Source of the DNA: Anthostomella pinea
Lineage: Eukaryota; Ascomycota; Sordariomycetes; Xylariales; Xylariaceae
Assembly: GCA_963556695.1 (NCBI GenBank)
Contig: CAUWAG010000020.1
Location: 1,860,001-1,924,000 of the forward strand
Length of the DNA: 64,000 nt
Direction: 5' to 3'
Shown: piece by piece, positions 7,209 through 57,090 of the stretch
Position numbering within the stretch: the stretch's first letter is position 1
Layout of the letters: each line of letters begins with the position of its first letter
The notes under the pieces: generated by a model
Told to the model about the DNA's origin: nothing
What the model saw: only the letters and a program-made list of their open reading frames with translations
Database searches by the model: none
Made by a program: the position numbers and the translations under genes

Positions 7209-9478
7209 TTACGCGAATACCATCTCGTCTATACTACTCTCATAGCCTCCAAACATGCTATTGCTGCTACCCGTTCCACTTGTTGGAGACGAGACGGCCG
7301 ACGAGACCGACGTCATTGGGGACGAATGCTCTTCCTCCCAGTTGGTGTCGTCGTCCCAGAAGGGCTTGTACTCGTCATCGGGCTGTAACAACCCTAACAT
7401 TAGCGATCTGAAGTGATATAAGCGGCCTCTGATAATACTGACCTATCTCGTCTGCGCACTCAACACATAGTCACGCACCCATCTCCCTATCTCCTCGTCG
7501 CTCTCCCTGTCTCCGCTGAGCTGGGCGTTGCTATCAGCTGCAACGATCCCGGCGCCCACCAGCGCAAGCAACTCCTTGAGGCCTGGGCGGTTTGCGATCG
7601 CTTCTGCCGTGCACCGGGCAATCAGCTCTCGTAAGGCCTGGTCGAAGCATCGGACGTGTTTCCTAGCGGCGATTTTGTTGGCCCGGATGATAAAGTGGGC
7701 GTGGGTTTCCAGCTTTTGGCCGTTGGACTCGAGGGTGACCCATCTCGCTCCCTCTTTTGTCGGGCGGGGGTGTGCTCGTACCACAAGGTTGAACATGACC
7801 TAGAAGTTAATTTATGTCCGCCAGTACATGCTTTTCGATGCTAGCCATTGGCAACGATTGGAGAAACTTGCGCAACCTACCATTCCTATTTGCCAAATGT
7901 TGGTGTGAGATCCGAAGACATCTACAGAGTCTGGACCGTCGAGTTGTTCCTATGAAACTCATTAGTCGATGATACACAAGTCATTTACCAATGGTCTCTG
8001 AATGTTTGGGACGGCGGCATCAAGTGCGCCCGAGACGCCCAAACCACCAAGTGCTGCTTTCGCGGACACATGCGCCAGACAGTCAGTACTCGTGTGGGCT
8101 GGAATGACTTACTGGAGCTCGATAGAGCGAGCTCCTTGCCTATTTCTTCGGATTGTCTCGTACTACACGTCAAATTTAGTGACACAAACGCGTGGATCGT
8201 GCATTTGCATGGAAGACGTACGCGACTTTGTTGTATCTGGCCTCGTCGGTGAACTCGGTGGTGATACCAAAGTCTCCGGTCTACGAAGTGTTAGCTTTCA
8301 TGCCATCTCAGCTGGTGTGATAATTGTGTTTCTCAGTTGAGTGTGTCTGATGAACACAAACCATTTCCTGCGTCTAGATCAAAGTGCACGATCCTTCTCT
8401 CAGCTTTATCTTTGATGGTCTCTCGAATTGACATATTGGTGAACTCGGGCATGGTTTGGAAGTCGGCTGGAGGATACACCATCACAACGCAAGCTCTCGT
8501 GACTAGAAGATAGGGTCTCATGAGTTTCAGGTTTTATTCAAAGCATTTCCTGATGCAGTCAACAAACTTACGGCATAGGAAGATTCGCCACAGAACCCTG
8601 TTTGGGATTTCCCTAGTGATATGCGGATCAAACAAATCCATCTCGGCCCTTTCGTTCATTTCCTCTATTAGTCCCTTGAGGCTGCCATTCACCAGAAACT
8701 CCATGGCGATCATCATGCGGCCTCCAACCCCCAGCTGGGCCCAAGGCACAGTTTGCGCAATGTGTTCTGCTCCCCTGAGCGTATGATGCCTCTGAAGTTC
8801 TCTCCCAAGGGGGTCCTCGCTGGGTTTGCCTTTATCATGGGCCATTTTGAGAGCCACGTATCGTTGATGCTCGCCATACCGGTTGAGTTGTTGGTACTTT
8901 GAAACCACACCACCTCCACTAAAACCAAGGACACCATTGCTGCGGAGCGATGGGTCGGTACTGAAACAAGCTTTGATGTCCTGATAACCAGCCCGCGCGG
9001 TCAAAAAGTTTTCGTCGTCGAGTTCGGGAAATTCCCTTTCGCCGTGCATGATGAGCTCCAAGTCGCCCCCCGCGAGTACTGAGAGAAATTGTGAGCAATA
9101 ACTGCGATGAAGAATGAATGAGAGTCGTGGGGCTTGGTGAGGAAGTACCGTAGTTTTCCCCAAGCTCTCGGTCACGGACAGCACGCTTCTTTAAGGCTTT
9201 GACAAATAGCCTCTCTCTAGATGCTTTTGACAGTCTCTGGGCCATTTGCAAAATGCGCTGCATGAACGTGAGATTATCGTCGACAGCGTGCGGGCCGCTT
9301 CCGCTGCTGTTGGAGCGTTTCCACCTTCGCTTCGCTGTGGTGCATTTTGACTGCTTATGGGGGCGCGACTGTACCACCCCCCGAAAAGGAGGCCGGAGAG
9401 AAATACTATCACGGTATACACCACAGACGATCTTAGTGACGGAGGAGATATATGCAGAAGATTGTATAGGTCCAACAT
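7209..9478 (-). CDS. Membrane-anchored protein kinase-like protein, frame-broken
   Basis: A eukaryotic protein-kinase-like gene of a fungal accessory type. Exons on the minus strand, in order: 9149-9478, 8572-9078, 8362-8502, 8222-8280, 8113-8162, 7989-8053, 7881-7949, 7479-7799 and 7209-7382, mostly with clean GT-AG signals. Visible kinase motifs are the glycine loop GFSGGGVVSK, the lysine strand VALKM, the hinge AMEFLVNGSL, the catalytic loop HFDLDAGN in place of HRDLKPEN, and the DFG triplet in GDFGITTEF. The start at 9478 gives MLDLYNLLH, followed by a hydrophobic stretch (SVVYTVIVFLSGLLFGGWY, residues 18-36) that looks like a membrane anchor, then a basic segment. Two faults are seen: a one-base frameshift at the G run 9359-9363, and a phase clash between the 8362 donor and the 8280 acceptor, just before DFG. 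It may be a pseudogene. A SINE sits about 90 bp upstream. Confidence 0.6.
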
Positions 9479-9556: not shown

Positions 9557-9569
9557 ACCTAATGGTTCC
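9557..9569. repeat. Target-site duplication of SINE copy 1 (13 bp)
   Basis: The 13-mer ACCTAATGGTTCC occurs here and again, perfectly, at 10138-10150. The two copies bracket the SINE, which is direct evidence of retroposition by target-primed reverse transcription. Confidence 0.92.
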
Positions 9570-9570
9570 G

Positions 9571-10137
9571 GGCCGTATGGCGCAATGGTCAAATGCGCCT
9601 GGTTGTGTTCTCGTTTGTGCGGTGGGCGACGAGAACAAGTGGGTTCGAATCCTGCTATGGCCCCCTTTCTGACCCGGCTTGTGCGAGTCGATAACCAGCA
9701 CACGACAGTGGAGAGGCCCCATTTTATCGCAGAGCCCGATAGCCAAGCAGCTTGTCTCCACAATACCCACTCCTGCGAGGTTTTCCCCCTTGTGGTTTCC
9801 CTCGCCAGCAGATAACAAACACCTACTCCACCCACCAATGCGACATATATCGAACGGCTACTGGAACGATATGTACACCAGAGAACTGAGGTTCACTGGG
9901 TCGCTTTGTCACTAGATAGGAGGTTTTTCTGACGGAATCGTGCTTGGGTATTGACTAAAACCATCTGAACACTCCAGATTGGTACCGCTACAGCGAGGAT
10001 AGGCTCGTGCGCGGATCTGAATGTATCTAATTTGACACCTCTACAACCTTGCGATGCAATGGCTCTGGGAGGCGTGGTTTGCACTACTGAGGAGCTACCC
10101 CCCACGTTAAATACAAAACAAACAAACAAACAAACAA
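9571..10137 (+). mobile_element. tRNA-derived SINE, copy 1 (full length)
   Basis: A non-autonomous retroposon of about 567 bp. The head (9571-9662) resembles a tRNA gene: 7-bp acceptor stem GGCCGTA with TATGGCC, A-box-like TGGCGCAATGG, and a perfect B box GGTTCGAATCC, so RNA polymerase III transcription is expected. The gap between D and T arms is about 16 nt longer than in a normal tRNA and contains a 9-bp hairpin (9606-9614 with 9629-9637). The body (9663 to about 10034) is unrelated to anything I know. The 3' end (about 10035-10137) is nearly identical to the end of the LINE at 12575-12678 and closes with an (AAAC)n tail. The flanking 13-bp duplication begins one base before the head. A second copy lies at 56545-57090. 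The insertion sits just upstream of the kinase-like gene, where it could alter its promoter. Confidence 0.92.
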
Positions 10138-10231
10138 ACCTAATGGTTCCAATATAACATTGTGGCTTTTCATCTCAAAGCACCTGGGTAAAGCTCAAGG
10201 TCGTTCACGGATTCAAGTAGAGGCCGCATTG

Positions 10232-10699
10232 TCAATGGTCTTTGATGCCTGTCCGTGAGATAGTTATCCAATAATTGCCCTGCAGGTGGCCCTTCGGTAA
10301 CGTCTTTGTCTTAAGAATACTGCGGTGCTTGGTAATCACTGCCGGTGGCACCCACAATTGTTTGCGATGAACTGGCATATTCAAATAAGTCTTGAAATAT
10401 TGGTAGAACATCCAGTCAAAGCTGTGTCGAGCCATGATAGCTATCTTCCACTCCTGCACCAGCATGCTCAAGAAAGCCACACAAAACACAAGCGAGGTGA
10501 GACATTCGACACCGCCGACAATAAAGTGTGGATTATATCGAGTAGTAGCACGGATGAATAATGTTTTCGCCGAAAAAGCATCGGGTTCATTTTGCGGTGC
10601 AGCTTGCCTCCTAGGCAAATTGGCAATCACACCCATGTTCAATTTCCTTGGTGGACAAATCCTGCTTGTTTCATCTACAATAGTAATCAAATGGATCAC
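10232..10699 (-). CDS. Hypothetical protein, weak support
   Basis: A 155-codon open frame with a basic N-terminal part and a central hydrophobic segment (CLTSLVFCVAFLSMLVQEWK). No family is recognised. An overlapping plus-strand frame (10434-10784) also has hydrophobic stretches, so I cannot decide which strand, if either, is coding. Confidence 0.18.
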   Translation of the reverse strand: MIHLITIVDETSRICPPRKLNMGVIANLPRRQAAPQNEPDAFSAKTLFIRATTRYNPHFIVGGVECLTSLVFCVAFLSMLVQEWKIAIMARHSFDWMFYQYFKTYLNMPVHRKQLWVPPAVITKHRSILKTKTLPKGHLQGNYWITISRTGIKDH

Positions 10700-11029
10700 T
10701 CATCCCGACGTGAAAACATATCTGATTGGGTTATTCGGGAGAAAAGCGGAATCTCTGGCATCTGCAGCCATGGGTTTTGCTTAGATTAGGAGAACTCCTG
10801 ATCATGATGTTAAATGGCGGCTCGGCACCCGGCCGCTGTTTGCCACGCAGGCTTGACACTCTCAAAACTTCACTACAAGAACTCACGTACTCCTCGAATG
10901 ACTCCTTCGCTTCCAGTCATTCCTAATAGATCGAATCGTCCACTCAATATAACACCTCCTACGCACAACTCAATCAGCGGGCGAAGCGCTCTATACATCC
11001 CCTCCGTCTTCACATATCTCCACACAGCG

Positions 11030-11873
11030 ATGTTGGTCAGACTGGCGAAGTCGGTCTCAATGGCCCTTGGACTTACACTCCTTTCAAACTGGGCGAGGCC
11101 GTTGGCTTGTGCGTGTCCCGTCAAGGATCACTCCCCTCATCGAACCTCAGCGGCAGTCACGGGAACCTCAGCGGCCGTCATCGGAACCTCAGCGGCCGTC
11201 AGCGGAACCTCAGCGGCCGTCAGCGGAACTTCCACATTCTACGGCGGGAACCTCAACGGCGGAATGTGTTCTTTCTCCACATACACTCTCCCCTCCGGCA
11301 TCTACGGCACCGCTTTCTCGGGGTCGGCATGGGCCACAGCTGCGAACTGCGGAGCCTGCATTGAGGTCACTGGGCCCAGCGGTGATCCCATTACCGCCAT
11401 GGTGCGCTATCCGCAATTCCTCCGGGACTCTCGTGGAGTCAGCGAGCACTAACATAGTACAGATCGTCGACCAATGTCCCGAGTGCGACGCAGGACATCT
11501 CGACCTCTTCGAGGACGCCTTCAAGAAGCTGTCACCATCGTCAAGCGACCCACTGTCGACATCATACACCTTCGTTGACTGCGGCATCAAGACCCCTTTG
11601 GTTCTACACAACAAGTCCGGAACCTCGCAGTACTGGTTCGCCATGCAGGTTGTCAACGCCAATGAGCCTGTATCCGTGCTCGAGGTCAGCACCGACGGCG
11701 GCTCGACGTGGAAGTCGACGACGCGCACGGAGTACAACTTCTTCCAGAATGAGAGCGGGTTTGGAACGACGACTGTGGCTGTTCGTGTTACCAGTGCCTC
11801 GGGGAAAACTGTCGTGGTGAAGAATGTTGGCGTGGTGTCGGACTCGCAGATTACGGCAGGTTCTAACTTCTAA
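11030..11873 (+). CDS. Expansin-like secreted protein
   Basis: Probably a secreted, non-hydrolytic wall-loosening protein of the expansin, loosenin and swollenin type. Two exons, 11030-11401 and 11463-11873, are split by a 61-bp intron with a CTAAC branch site and TACAG acceptor; the protein is 260 aa. The N-terminus is a signal peptide (SVSMALGLTLLSNWARPLACA). Next comes a short linker of 7-residue repeats (GTSAAVx) coded by a 21-bp tandem repeat. The double-psi beta-barrel domain follows: TFYGGNLNGGMCSF, NCGACIEVTGPSGD, then IVDQCPECDAGHLDLF across the intron. DQCPEC carries the conserved Asp of the barwin/expansin fold. The last 90 residues (SQYWFAMQV, STDGGSTWKS) look like the C-terminal expansin/CBM63-type binding domain. 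The start is placed at the ATG directly before the signal peptide. Confidence 0.85.
11141..11230 (+). repeat. 21-bp tandem repeat in expansin linker
   Basis: Four copies and a partial fifth of a 21-bp unit containing AACCTCAGCGGCCGTCA start near 11143, 11164, 11185, 11206 and 11227. They encode GTSAAV plus one variable residue. The first copy is the most diverged. The length of this linker is expected to vary between strains by slippage. Confidence 0.85.
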
Positions 11874-12325
11874 GCATACCTTGGTGCTTTTGGGAGGAAG
11901 AACCATTCAAGGACGCGTCATCGAAATGTCGAGCAGGAGGAAACAGAGGATAAACTCCAGCATATCCCCTGAAACACCATTGTACAAGATGCGGGAGTAC
12001 ATTAGACTACTACCTAGAGCAGTGTAGGCCAGGGATATTAAGACCATCAGGGTCATATGAGGACTTCAGTTCCGAGTGATCCCGAGACATAGGCCCATTT
12101 AGCCTGAGCAAAGAATCACAAATACTAACGCGTCTATGTGAGAAGCACCTTCCTCCTTGGCTGAGATAAAGGGGCCTGTTGGCAAGGCATTCAACGCACC
12201 ATCCCTTCTACACTGTCACCTGAATGCACATGTCGATAACCACTTGAATAATAAGTCGCATTATTTCACGTAGCCCAATCTCATAAACTACACGCGCTAT
12301 GAGAAACGAGATCCCCAAAAAGTTC

Positions 12326-12560
12326 CTAAAGAAGTATCCACCAATCGCCGCAAGGTTGACCAGGCCCGAAGAGTAGCTGCCTAGGTAGATAAACCGTCCA
12401 TGCCCTTAGCCACAGGAAATCCGACAAGCAGACGCGACTCCGATGAGCATCCGATACAACAATCCAGTCAAATAATTTGACTTTCATTCCAAAACATCTG
12501 GTCCCATTGGAGAGGCTAACAAGAAAAGGGTGTTCAGTAATTTGTCCAGTGCGGAAGAGA
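12326..12560 (-). pseudogene. 3' part of a host gene split by the LINE
   Basis: This open frame continues in the same reading frame from the 5' part at 16253-16698 once the LINE and one copy of its 14-bp target-site duplication are removed. The join reads SSLQ-DLFRTGQITEHPFLV and continues to the stop at 12326. The family is not recognised. As the DNA stands, this fragment has no natural start and should not be expressed as part of the original protein. Confidence 0.55.
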
Positions 12561-12574
12561 TCCTGCAAGGATGA
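12561..12574. repeat. Target-site duplication of the LINE (14 bp)
   Basis: The 14-mer TCCTGCAAGGATGA is present here and perfectly repeated at 16239-16252. The pair delimits the LINE insertion exactly and shows that everything from 12575 to 16238, including the SINE-like tail, arrived as one unit. Confidence 0.95.
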
Positions 12575-12678
12575 TTGTTTGTTTGTTTGTTTGTTTTGTA
12601 TTTAACGTGGGGGGTAGCTCCTCAGTAGTGCAAACCACGCCTCCCAGAGCCTCTGCATCGCAGGGTTGTGGAGGTCTC
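12575..12678 (-). repeat. LINE 3' tail shared with the SINEs
   Basis: Reading on the minus strand, this segment ends in GCACTACTGAGGAGCTACCC, the CCCACGTTAAATACAAAAC block and an (AAAC)n run. It matches SINE copy 1 (10035-10137) almost base for base and SINE copy 2 (56545-56632) with more changes. This is the likely recognition site for the LINE reverse transcriptase. Confidence 0.9.
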
Positions 12679-15600
12679 AAGATAATAAGTACAGTCAGTC
12701 CCGCTCACGGGCCCATCCCCGTTGTTGCGGCGGTATGACCTTGGGGTCATCCATCTGGTCCTTCGAGAAAAGCTATCTATCGGGGACAGATTGTTGAAAA
12801 GAACTTGCTCTTCTTCACGAATTTTGCCCATTTTGTGCTCCTCTCCCCTAAGTATTATAAACAAGCTGTCCTAGGCGAGTACCTAGGCAGTAGCCGATTT
12901 TTTCCCAGTCTCTTACAAAAGAAAATATGTTGTGGTGTTTTTTTCTTACCACAACTGCAATGGTCATTTGAGTCTGTATGCCCAAAGCGTTCATGGTATC
13001 TGGCAAAGTCGCCATGTCCAGATCTGGCCGCTAGAAGTCTGTGTAAAGTACTCCTCTTAAAAGATATCAGGTCTCTTTTAGTTACTGCGTGTGAGTATAC
13101 TTCTTGATACCTAGATTCTGATTGGTCTTTCTACCATTGGTTGAACTCCTTTCTGCCCTTTCTTTTGAGATCTCTTTTGACCCAAGAGATTGTAGGAAGG
13201 CTTGTTGTGTCTGTTTCCAGCATGGCACCCTCTTTTGCTAATGTGTCGGCAGCTTCATTGCCATTAATATCTCTGTGTCCAGGAATCTACTTGACGGTCA
13301 CTCCAGGAGTGTGTGCTGTGGCAAGTTCTTGAAATCGTAGAAAAATATTCTGTGATGTCTCGGGTGGAGTCCCATTGAGCCCATCTACCACTGACGTGTT
13401 GTCCAGGCAGACATATAGCTGTTTTCTGTGTCCAATTGCCCTGGCTGCTGCAAGACCTTGGAGAGCACCATAGACTTCAGCATCTATTACTTCTGCTTGT
13501 AGAAGTCTAGCCTTTCCCCGGTATACTTCTTGAGTAGTGTTGCCTTTCCTGATGGTGTAACCCCATCCAGTGCGGGTTGTACCTTGGTCAACCAATTGTG
13601 ATCCATCTGAGTAGATGACAAGGTCAGTGTTCACATTTCTTTCCTGTAACCATTGCTTGAAGAGCTCTGTTTCTTTGTCTTTGTCTTTACGGACTGGGGG
13701 CTTCTTCCATGATAGCCTGGTAAGTGTTGGTCTCTGGAAGTCAGGGACTAGCTGGAAGCTCCTTTGTAGCCTTGTTGGATCCTTGCGAGCTTGTATTTGG
13801 AGCCTGCTAACAAGAGGGTGTCTCTGGTCTATTCGTCCTAGTCGGAGGCCGTGACGTCGTCATATTGACTCTGCAAGAACGCCAGCTGGGGGAATCTGCG
13901 ATTCAAAATGTAGGATATGCCCAGGGTATGTTTTCCAGACTGGCAAGATAGCCCTGATCGCCGTTCGTAGTACAGCATCTATTGTCCCAAGAAGCCCCTT
14001 AATGTGACATGTTGATGTCTCACCTGAGCTCCTGATTTTTTCGATTCCTGGGTACCAGGTCTCTAGGCCGTGTGTAAGAATAGGAATAACACGAGCTTTC
14101 ACAGCCCTCCTGGTTGATTTTACTGGGAGTCCCTTGACTGTGTTGCATAGTCCTCGAAGGTGATTTGCTACCCTACTAGCTTTCTTGGCCCAGTGAGAAA
14201 CATGAACTTTGAAGTTTAGTTTTCTATCCAGAAGGACACCTAGCTATCGCATAGAATGCTTAGCTATTTTGTTTATTGTCCTGTGGCAGACTGGAGGGTT
14301 GTCTGAGTTCTTTTTCTGTGAGAAGTGCATGATCTCGGTTTTGTTGGGGTCAAACTCAATAGCATTATTATGTCCCTATTAGTTAAGCAAATAAAGATTT
14401 TTAGAAGCCTCTGTAGTTGTTTCTTTAAGGTTCTTTCCAATACAGAGAGTTGCTAGGTTGTCTGCATATCCAAAGCGTCTTCTTTTCATGCCAAGTTGGG
14501 CACAGATTGGCTCGGTATACAGCATATAAAGGATTAGAGAGGCTGGTGAGCCTTGTGGTAGCCCACAAGTGAGAGCTTTTATATCGGTCATAATACCTTC
14601 AAACCGAACTCTTGTGGACCGCTCGGACATGAATGACTGGACCCATCTTATGAGAAAGCCCGGCCAGCCCTGTTCTCTCATGCGAACCACCAGCCGTCCC
14701 ATTAGGGCAGCATCAAAGGCCCTTTTCACATCTGACGTGACTACTGTTGCAACAAGGCCTTGATCGAGGGCCTGCTCAATATCGTGTATGAGTGCAGCTA
14801 CCAGATCAGTGGCAGAGCGCTTTGGTAGAGCTCCAAATTGTTGTGGAGCTAGAATTCTAAGTTTGACAATAAACCAGGTAATTCTTTTTGTGATGAATCG
14901 TTCTAGGCCTTTGCCAAGACACGACAATAGCGATATTGGTCTGTAGGCCCTGGGATTGCAGTAGTCTTTCTTTCCTGGTTTTGGGATCATCACCACCTCA
15001 GCTGCTTTGAATGGTTTAGGGTGGTGTCTAATCTGTAGGCAGGTCTGGAAAAGGGCTCTGATATGTTCACCAATGACCAGCCAGCAAGCTTTCAGAGTCC
15101 GTACTGTGAGGGTGTCTATTCCCGGGGAGTTGCTCTTGGTTCCTAGAGTGCACCCTTCAGCCTCTTCCAGTCCGACATGGTATTCAAGGGGGATGTATGG
15201 CTTAGGTTGTATGATCTGCGCAGACCAGGGGTCGATGATATCGTTGTCTGAAGTACTTCGTTCAAGCGTGGCTGAGCGTAGTGCATTTGCCTTGCTCTCT
15301 TGTGATTCGAATATTTGGTCTCCTATGATGATTGGAAGGGAACACAGTCCTGCTGATAACTTGTGCCAAGAGACGATTCTCTATAGGTCCTTTGGCTCAG
15401 TTGCTGAATTGATTAGAGTCTGCCAGTACTCTCTCTTAGCTTTGCGAACCACGCGACGAAATTCCCGTCGGGCTGAATTCCGCCCTTCTTGACTTGTAGT
15501 CTGTTTGGAAAGGACTCTGTATGTCTGAATAGCTGATTTATAGTCATCATTCCACCAAGCAGTGGGCCTAGATTGACGGGGCTTCTTGCCCACTGTCCTG

Positions 15601-16238
15601 ATACAGCCTTGAATCATATTGATCAAGCTTTGTGTAAAGGTATCCACCTGGCCAGGGGATACACCCAGCCGGGGGAGTTCATGAATCCTGGTTTGGACAT
15701 TGTCTGCCAGCTCTTGTAGTTTATCATCCGGTACTATCCAATGATTGGCCTTAAGAACTCGGTCCCGATCTCCCTGAATTGGAATGACTATTCGTAATGT
15801 CTCATGATCTGAGGTGCACTGAAGTGCATCATTGACTGAGGCTTCAGCCATGGGGACATCTGAGAACACCAGATCTAGTACATTTCTGTCATCATGTGTT
15901 GGAACATCTGGTTCAGAAATCAGATCCAGTCCATGATCTGCCATAGTCTGTGCAAGTATGACACCACCATGATATCCTGGATTGCTTGAGTCCCAGGATA
16001 TATCGCCAGCATTGAAATCTCCAGCTATAACGCAGCCAAAAGGTGGAGTCCATACTTCCAGAATGTCATTCACTTCTTGTGGGTTGTCACAAGGCCGGTA
16101 GACACTGGCAAATATAATGCCTTGTACCTTGACCCAGGTGATGTCTCGTGTAGCATAGGGCCGAAGTTGATCCGCTTGAAGGTGTTTTCTCACATAGATG
16201 AGAGATCTGGGCCGTGTACTGTCGCTGTCCCAGGAATC
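12575..16238 (-). mobile_element. 5'-truncated LINE retrotransposon (Tad1-like)
   Basis: A non-LTR retrotransposon on the minus strand. Its 5' end (16238) starts inside the apurinic endonuclease domain, so ORF1 and the beginning of ORF2 are missing. Domains in order: endonuclease (16193-15381, with VIAGDFNAGDISWDSS and CTSDHETLRIVIP), reverse transcriptase (14996-14379, YRPISLLSCLGKG, TSDVKRAFDAAL, LPQGSPAS, FGYADN), RNase H (13634-13287, IYSDGSQ, AEVYGAL, CLDNTSVV) with IPGHRDINGNEAAD after it, and a C-terminal Cys-His cluster (CSCGKKKTPQHIFFC) near 12930. All pieces are in one frame, interrupted by at least seven stop codons and no frameshift. The polymerase box reads YADN rather than YADD. 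The last 100 bp or so match the SINE 3' end. It is clearly dead. Perfect 14-bp target-site duplications flank it. Confidence 0.93.
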
Positions 16239-16252
16239 TCCTGCAAGGATGA

Positions 16253-56544: not shown

Positions 56545-57090
56545 ATTGATTGTATTTATCGTGGGTGCAGTCCCTCCATAGGGCAAACCACGCCTCCCAG
56601 AGCCATTGCATCGCAAGGTTATAGAGGTGTCAGTCTAGATGCATTCAGATCCGCGCACGAGCCTATCCTCGCTGTAGCGGTACCAACCTGGAGTGACCAG
56701 ATGGTTTTAGTCAATACCCAAACACGATTCCCTCAGAAAAACCTCCTGTCCAGTGACTAAGCGACCCAGTGAACCTCAGTCCTCTGGTGTATACATCGTT
56801 CCAGTAGCCGTTCGATATATGTCGCATTGGTGGGTAAAGTAGGTATTTGTTATCTACTGGCGAGGGAAACCACAAGGGGAAAAACCTCGCAGGAGTGGGT
56901 ATTGTGGAGACAAGCTGTTTGGCTATCGGGCTCTGCGATAAGGGGCCTCTCCACTGTCGTGTGCTGGTTGTCGACTCGCACAAGCCGGGTCAGAAGGGGG
57001 CCATAGCAGGATTCGAACCCACTTGTTCTCGTCGCCCACCGCACAAACGAGAACACAACCAGGCGCATTTGACCATTGCGCCATACGGCC
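56545..57090 (-). mobile_element. tRNA-derived SINE, copy 2 (full length)
   Basis: The same element as 9571-10137, in the opposite orientation. The tRNA-like head occupies 56999-57090, with the A-box-like and B-box sequences identical to copy 1. The body is about 95% identical by eye, and many differences are C/T or G/A. The 3' end (56545-56632) is the LINE-shared block but ends in ATACAATCAAT instead of the (AAAC)n run. The element begins at base one of the head, directly after the 14-bp duplication, so it is full length. The perfect duplication suggests a fairly recent insertion. Confidence 0.92.

Follow-up and report, generated by a model that had tools for sequence, protein, structure and literature searches.

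How does a short interspersed nuclear element (SINE) come to end in the same sequence as a long interspersed nuclear element (LINE) that lies beside it? The question is raised by a 64,000-nucleotide stretch of DNA (hereafter the window) of Anthostomella pinea, a pine-needle fungus of the Xylariales, whose 53.7-Mb genome of 16 contigs we searched; C-numbers below denote contigs of this genome and L-numbers loci fetched from it. We found that the A. pinea genome contains a real SINE/LINE pair with a shared tail, the 3′ end of the SINE being homologous to the 3′ end of the LINE. The explanation that best covers the data as a whole, and that we favour with reasonable confidence, is a matched LINE and a tRNA-headed SINE with a LINE-derived end, the tail of which was later replaced. 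SINE copies are typed here by their terminal block and the tetranucleotide run that follows it: type O has an old end and an AATC run, type I the old end and an AAAC run, and type Y a LINE-type end and an AAAC run. The young SINE of the window, with its target-site duplications (TSDs), has the following parts.

9557..9569, plus strand: 5′ TSD of the young SINE, ACCTAATGGTTCC, 13 bp, read from the sequence
9571..10137, plus strand: young SINE copy, type Y, from genome matches and TSDs
9571..9665, plus strand: tRNA-like head, called by ARAGORN as tRNA-His(GTG); Rfam RF00005 at 28.2 bits, E 0.0014, just under the gathering score of 29
9578-9588, plus strand: A-box-like TGGCGCAATGG, by likeness to the box consensus
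9642-9652, plus strand: B-box-like GGTTCGAATCC, by likeness to the box consensus
9666..9984, plus strand: SINE body, in which blastn against a full-length LINE copy found no LINE similarity
9985..10060, plus strand: LINE-derived, outer stretch, in which 18 of 76 aligned sites do not match the LINE
10061..10082, plus strand: 22-nt block GGCTCTGGGAGGCGTGGTTTGC, identical in 6 of 7 aligned LINE and SINE tail variants; proposed template-switch interval
10083..10114, plus strand: terminal 32 nt, equal to the window LINE and unlike older SINEs in the alignment of tail variants
10115..10137, plus strand: (AAAC)n run of the young SINE, read from the sequence
10138..10150, plus strand: 3′ TSD of the young SINE, ACCTAATGGTTCC, read from the sequence

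The LINE lies on the other strand; its domains are named from L041, a copy with open reading frames (ORFs).

12561..12574, minus strand: TSD at the 3′ end of the element, TCCTGCAAGGATGA, 14 bp, read from the sequence
12575..16238, minus strand: 5′-truncated LINE copy with broken frames, from genome matches
12575..12730, minus strand: LINE 3′ tail common to the SINE, ending in (AAAC)n, from alignment and genome words
13287-13634, minus strand: RNase H-like fragment
15381-16193 and 14379-14996, minus strand: endonuclease (EN)/reverse transcriptase (RT) fragment ORFs
16239..16252, minus strand: TSD at the 5′ end of the element, TCCTGCAAGGATGA, read from the sequence

Aligned from a SINE query of 568 bases starting at 9573, the two 3′ ends agree at 136 of 156 columns (87%; 3 gaps; E = 8e-52), and the upstream edge of the shared region is sharp, at base 413 of the query. 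A sequence-only reading of this DNA had called the last 90-100 bp of both elements nearly identical. The near-identity itself was borne out, the last 54 nt before the tetranucleotide run being the same at 54 of 54 positions in the SINE and the window LINE, but the extent needed correction: the shared region is about 155 bp long and only its last third is identical, with differences at 18 of 76 ungapped sites in the outer part versus 0 of 54 in the inner part (Fisher p = 3.7e-5). Because the 20-mer CCCCACGTTAAATACAAAAC of the tail occurs 428 times in the genome and its reversed control not once, the likeness is not due to chance. The LINE-type tail word has 362 exact copies and the SINE-type tail word 229, with no occurrence of either reversed control.

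To which of the two elements does this tail belong? It might be a nested or transduced SINE fragment at the end of the LINE. First, however, the tail of the window copy lies inside the 14-bp TSD of the LINE, the ground on which the sequence-only reading had assigned it to that element. Second, all 38 long LINE copies read, which are the best-scoring matches to a query with the tail included, end in the tail, its end being slightly altered in two (L043 and L045). Third, a word of the LINE 3′ untranslated region (UTR) just upstream of the shared part has 312 exact copies, and in 276 of them the exact ACGTTAAATAC follows 105-130 nt further on; seven of the 36 places without it were read, five of which hold a mutated tail and one a tail interrupted by a young SINE, while one enters other LINE sequence. 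Fourth, the bases just upstream are diagnostic, GCAGAGG in LINE copies versus GCAATGG in the SINE. The tail is therefore the LINE's own. A nested SINE was rejected as its source, given the presence of the tail on LINE copies genome-wide and the misses read, and we regard this origin as extremely improbable. Since neither full-length relatives without the tail nor a SINE fragment with its own separate duplication appeared when both were looked for, the matched pair is real.

The window LINE is a 5′-truncated, frame-broken copy; the whole element is roughly 5.6 kb long. Our genome similarity searches score only the best candidates, so that match counts for both elements are lower bounds; the LINE query gave at least 39 long matches, one of them the window copy itself, and at least 4 partial matches. 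Of the 38 copies read, 28 have a 5′ start that was recognised, and 19 of these are flanked by TSDs of at least 10 bp (median 14). Four long stretches were read for their frames (L039-L042). These are broken in L039 and L040; in L041, ORF1 (547 codons) and ORF2 (1255 codons) are both open from stop to stop, and in L042, from which the initial 310 bp of the alignment are missing and whose remainder matches L041 at 99.9% identity, both are open over the part present (486 and 1254 codons). Pfam recognises an endonuclease, a reverse transcriptase and RNase H in ORF2 of L041 and has no match for its ORF1. With EN and RT in ORF2, 5′ truncation and TSDs, the element is a non-long-terminal-repeat retrotransposon, that is, a LINE. 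Its anatomy, comprising an ORF1 without a Pfam match, an EN-RT-RNase H ORF2 and fungal relatives, is compatible with the Tad1 clade; the closest protein found is a partial one from Neoarthrinium moseri, which covers 68% of the query at 67%. The open frames of L041 support the proposal of the sequence-only reading that an autonomous and a non-autonomous element are matched here, in that the LINE may be autonomous.

Some LINE copies were unusual in other respects. On C10, two copies in opposite orientation (1271846, plus, and 1302225, minus; loci L064/L102 and L056/L094) appear by eye to have swapped their flanking duplications, as expected if recombination had inverted the roughly 30 kb between them, though an assembly error may also be the cause; a similar swap of more complex form was seen by eye among L052, L067 and L069 at C2:4.14-4.23 Mb. 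The copy L066 (C9:4854726-4858380) stops exactly at the contig end, within its AAAC run, and in L004 (1501-1715) a second tail, 93% identical, stands directly behind the first.

The SINE is likewise a family. Among the matches listed, at least 41 in number, 40 are full-length or nearly so at 99-100% identity and one is partial at 86%. All 30 best-scoring copies read are flanked by TSDs of 11-17 bp (median 14), which in L029 sits 12 bp from the SINE start; copies with a tRNA-like head and tail repeats, which the sequence-only reading had suggested seeking genome-wide, were thus found as a family. The head is tRNA-like, with predicted internal promoter boxes for RNA polymerase III (Pol III), and only the 3′ region of the SINE aligns with the LINE. 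By eye, LINE sequence seems to flank the young SINEs L019, L022 and L032, which would be insertions into LINE copies, and in L158 a young SINE is inserted within a LINE 3′ tail. The available text on the published A. pinea annotation gives 199 tRNA genes, called by tRNAscan-SE with the pseudogene check off; SINE heads such as that at 9571-9665 of the window may be counted among them.

How old is the present end of the SINE? A second copy in the window ends differently.

56552..57090, minus strand: older SINE copy, type O, with the other terminal block, an (AATC)n run and the TSD CATATCCGAGAATT, from alignment

Exact counts in the genome are 106 for the old end with AATC, 15 for the old end with AAAC and 135 for the LINE-type end with AATC. 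Twenty of the 106 places were fetched, 16 of which had been picked for having no exact SINE-type word beside them, and 19 of the 20 are SINEs. The 15 places with the old end and AAAC all carry the SINE tail, and 10 an exact head word. Twenty of the 135 places with the LINE-type end and AATC were also fetched; all match the LINE, and the SINE-type word is absent from each. We cross-tabulated ends and runs over contig C2 plus C3:1-3.5 Mb, where the word lists used were complete; exact-match words were demanded, so that older copies are undercounted. In this stretch, 45 SINE words comprised 15 with the LINE-type end and AAAC, 17 with the old end and AATC, 2 with the old end and AAAC, none with the LINE-type end and AATC, and 11 unassigned, and 75 LINE words comprised 50 with the LINE-type end and AAAC, 11 with the LINE-type end and AATC, none with the old end, and 14 unassigned. 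Among AATC copies, end type is thus associated with the element (Fisher p = 4.7e-8).

In copies chosen by exact tail words, with those too short dropped (1 of 15 Y, 2 of 15 I and 1 of 19 O), SINE bodies diverge by 1.25% within Y (14 copies), 2.9% within I (13) and 5.8% within O (18), and by 4.5% between I and Y and 5.7% between O and Y; with best-scoring Y copies instead, the values are 0.13% (Y-Y), 2.9% (I-I), 5.7% (O-O), 4.1% (I-Y) and 5.2% (O-Y). Y is therefore the most uniform group in the pattern-based sample as well. Compared with the Y copy of the window, the terminal block differs by 25.3% in 20 O copies whose bodies differ by 5.1% (binomial p = 1.7e-4), and by 24.5% in 13 I copies whose bodies differ by 4.0% (binomial p = 4e-5), copies too short for the comparison being left out (1 of 21 O and 2 of 15 I). 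Because of these body and terminal-block divergences, we take Y to be the youngest SINE group, with change concentrated in its end. Repeat-induced point mutation was considered as the source of the divergence of old copies and set aside: C-to-T changes are enriched, yet they are not CpA-dominated.

These observations suggest that the last 34 or so nucleotides of the SINE were probably replaced by the terminal block of the LINE. By what route might this have happened? The 22-nt block is identical in six of the seven aligned tail variants and differs at 2 sites in the seventh, and TAAATAC is present in all seven. Because the Y SINE has SINE-type bases just upstream of this block and LINE-type bases after it, a switch of template from LINE RNA to SINE RNA inside the block would explain the tail in one step, and it is the probable route. 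In the mechanism we propose, SINE RNA would be made from the predicted internal promoter, a LINE protein would bind it through the shared 3′ tail, and reverse transcription at the nicked target, starting from the tetranucleotide run, would leave TSDs of 11-17 bp, the SINE being in this way mobilised in trans. TSD lengths of the SINE and the LINE are indistinguishable (Mann-Whitney p = 0.62). An A stands at position −3 in 19 of 30 SINE sites and 9 of 19 LINE sites, and the two site matrices correlate (r = 0.48, permutation p = 0.016), which indicates a weak common site preference; a pyrimidine at −1 of the TSD start is a signal possibly biased by the repeat run. Alternatively, the tail may have passed between SINE and LINE copies as DNA, through gene conversion or an unequal exchange. 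The swapped flanking duplications on C10 and C2 suggest that recombination between copies does occur, but an identical block of only 22 nt is short for gene conversion, and in Magnaporthe grisea template jumps of LINEs, including chimeras of Mg-SINE, have been reported (in the available text of PMC2104539). We consider a DNA-level transfer fairly improbable and retain template switching as the probable route.

The order of events may be preserved as well. Copies from before the change, intermediate copies and copies from after it would correspond to O, I and Y, and we tentatively propose, as something just short of an even chance, that the SINE re-acquired the 3′ end of its partner stepwise, the AAAC run first and the terminal block next. 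A different history, in which nothing was replaced, is that the LINE-type end is ancestral and was kept by constraint with the LINE; older SINEs would then have branched off to the side, and their last block would have drifted or become adapted to a different LINE. In its favour, Y and the LINE group together at one informative site of the outer region. However, none of the 34 assigned SINE words of the cross-tabulated stretch combines the LINE-type end with AATC, the surplus of changes lies in the terminal block only, and the group that bears the LINE-type end is the most uniform one; we therefore judge an ancestral LINE-type end to be unlikely.

Several observations weigh against stepwise replacement or against the account as a whole, and we set them out together here and, where they concern recognition, in the following paragraph. 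The nesting of Y within O is moderately supported, with ultrafast bootstrap values of only 78-82 under a midpoint root that is an assumption, and the O-Y divergence is not clearly below that within O but about equals it, both of which would suit an ancestral LINE-type end. The C run of the tail is five bases long in 35 of the 38 best-scoring LINE copies, among them the open L041, and six bases long in the SINE and the window LINE; when 10 AAAC LINE copies were instead picked by pattern, six Cs, as in the SINE, were counted in 8 and five in 1, the remaining copy falling outside the motif. A T5 run inside the SINE could stop Pol III. The old SINE end was not found on a LINE among 22 of the 106 exact old-tail places (the 20 fetched and 2 others). 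The sole place that was not a SINE, L126, which is the same as L139 (C3:1943200-1951400, tail at 7868), holds a short old-type fragment with an AATC run and no SINE body upstream, and within its 8.2 kb neither a LINE protein match nor a TSD of at least 10 bp was found. Nor did AATC LINE copies prove to be an older generation. A first comparison had set pattern-picked AATC copies (8.6%; 13 of 20 used) against best-scoring AAAC copies (mean 2.4%, median 1.0%), and a pattern-based sample of both removed the difference, with pairwise divergences of 8.4% (AATC; 14 of 20 used) and 8.8% (AAAC; 6 of 10 used). Old LINE copies carry either run, and the near-identical recent ones read carry AAAC; the tree of LINE 3′ ends took in truncated copies with foreign flanks.

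What in the tail is recognised? Which part of its RNA a LINE enzyme recognises is known chiefly from work on animals. For zebrafish LINEs, the available text of PMC4176376 describes strict tail recognition by ORF2 proteins. On the same side as the points just listed stands the spread of O (at least 106 exact tails) and I (15) SINEs with an end about 25% unlike that of the LINE. So does the folding of the tail, which is no better than that of shuffled sequences (minimum free energy z-scores of −0.78 and 0.03), and so does a weak covariation test, in which one compensatory pair was found and 61 of 500 shuffles did as well. Predicted folds differ between tail variants, and wobble-compatible changes are present but lack significance as evidence for a conserved hairpin. 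Because older SINEs spread with other last 34 or so nucleotides, and no hairpin stood out, stringent-type recognition is not proven. Perhaps, then, the tetranucleotide run, alone or with a short core, is enough, and the 54-nt identity reflects recent common origin only. Such relaxed recognition would fit the different terminal block of O and I, the absence of a hairpin that stood out and the occurrence of both AATC and AAAC runs on both elements. We find it doubtful nonetheless, given that the 22-nt block and TAAATAC are kept in 6 and 7 of the seven tail variants, respectively, and that the LINE-type end is borne by the SINE lineage with the least internal variation. Because older SINEs spread without the LINE-type end and none of their ends was found on a LINE read, either recognition needs less than the full tail, perhaps the 22-nt block, TAAATAC and the run, or another LINE partner has been lost or missed.

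Elsewhere in the window, the ORF at 44695-48516 matches A. pinea Atg11 at 100%.

The sequence-only reading had supposed such pairs to be known mainly from animals and plants, which understates the case, fungal pairs having been published. A table in PMC3747384 includes Mg-SINE/MGL and SINE2-1_BG/Tad1-24_BG, and the available text of PMC5063351 describes AfuSINE2-1a/I-1_AF of Aspergillus fumigatus. The first of these resembles the A. pinea pair in being an ascomycete system with a tRNA-derived SINE, a LINE-like 3′ end and LINE-type TSDs; template switches were held responsible for M. grisea chimeras that join MGL, Mg-SINE and a cellular RNA, and Mg-SINE was described as a mimic of the MGL end (PMC2104539, PMC3747384). 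Older SINE copies with another end are not described in the available parts of these two papers, and the likeness is one of descriptions, not of sequences. In A. fumigatus, the SINE 3′ end likewise resembles the 3′ UTR of a LINE, there of Tad type, and the element LLE#4_3.0 has overlapping ORF1 and ORF2 and 13-bp TSDs; unlike the A. pinea SINE, AfuSINE2-1a ends in ACT repeats, and most LINE-like copies of that genome are described as not intact (PMC5063351, as available). The Blumeria graminis pair SINE2-1_BG/Tad1-24_BG likewise joins a SINE with a tRNA promoter to a fungal LINE, theirs of the Tad1 clade (table of PMC3747384). Outside fungi, HaSE1 and HaSE3 with HaRTE1.1 of the moth Helicoverpa armigera also show an exchange of SINE parts and a tail in common with the partner LINE, and a SINE chimera there was ascribed to template switching; according to the available text, the head was changed on a common body and tail, whereas in A. 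pinea the end was changed on a common body (PMC3272025). A literature search without most subscription journals found neither the A. pinea pair nor a replaced end in a fungal SINE, and the main text of the published A. pinea genome paper, as available, contains no word starting with "transpos" or "sine".

Exchange of SINE tails is known in vertebrates. Fungal SINE/LINE pairs are, as a kind, already known, and what A. pinea adds is that its genome has kept SINE copies that predate the change as well as copies that followed it. They form a graded natural series of tails, from the LINE with AATC or AAAC, through the SINE with its old end and either run, to the SINE with the LINE-type end, and this series points to a recognition core that can be tested: the 22-nt block, TAAATAC and the tetranucleotide run. 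The pair may also illustrate how a SINE can restore its match to a partner, namely by adopting the partner's own end. If the stepwise account is true, a single fungal genome records a SINE renewing its access to the enzyme of a LINE.

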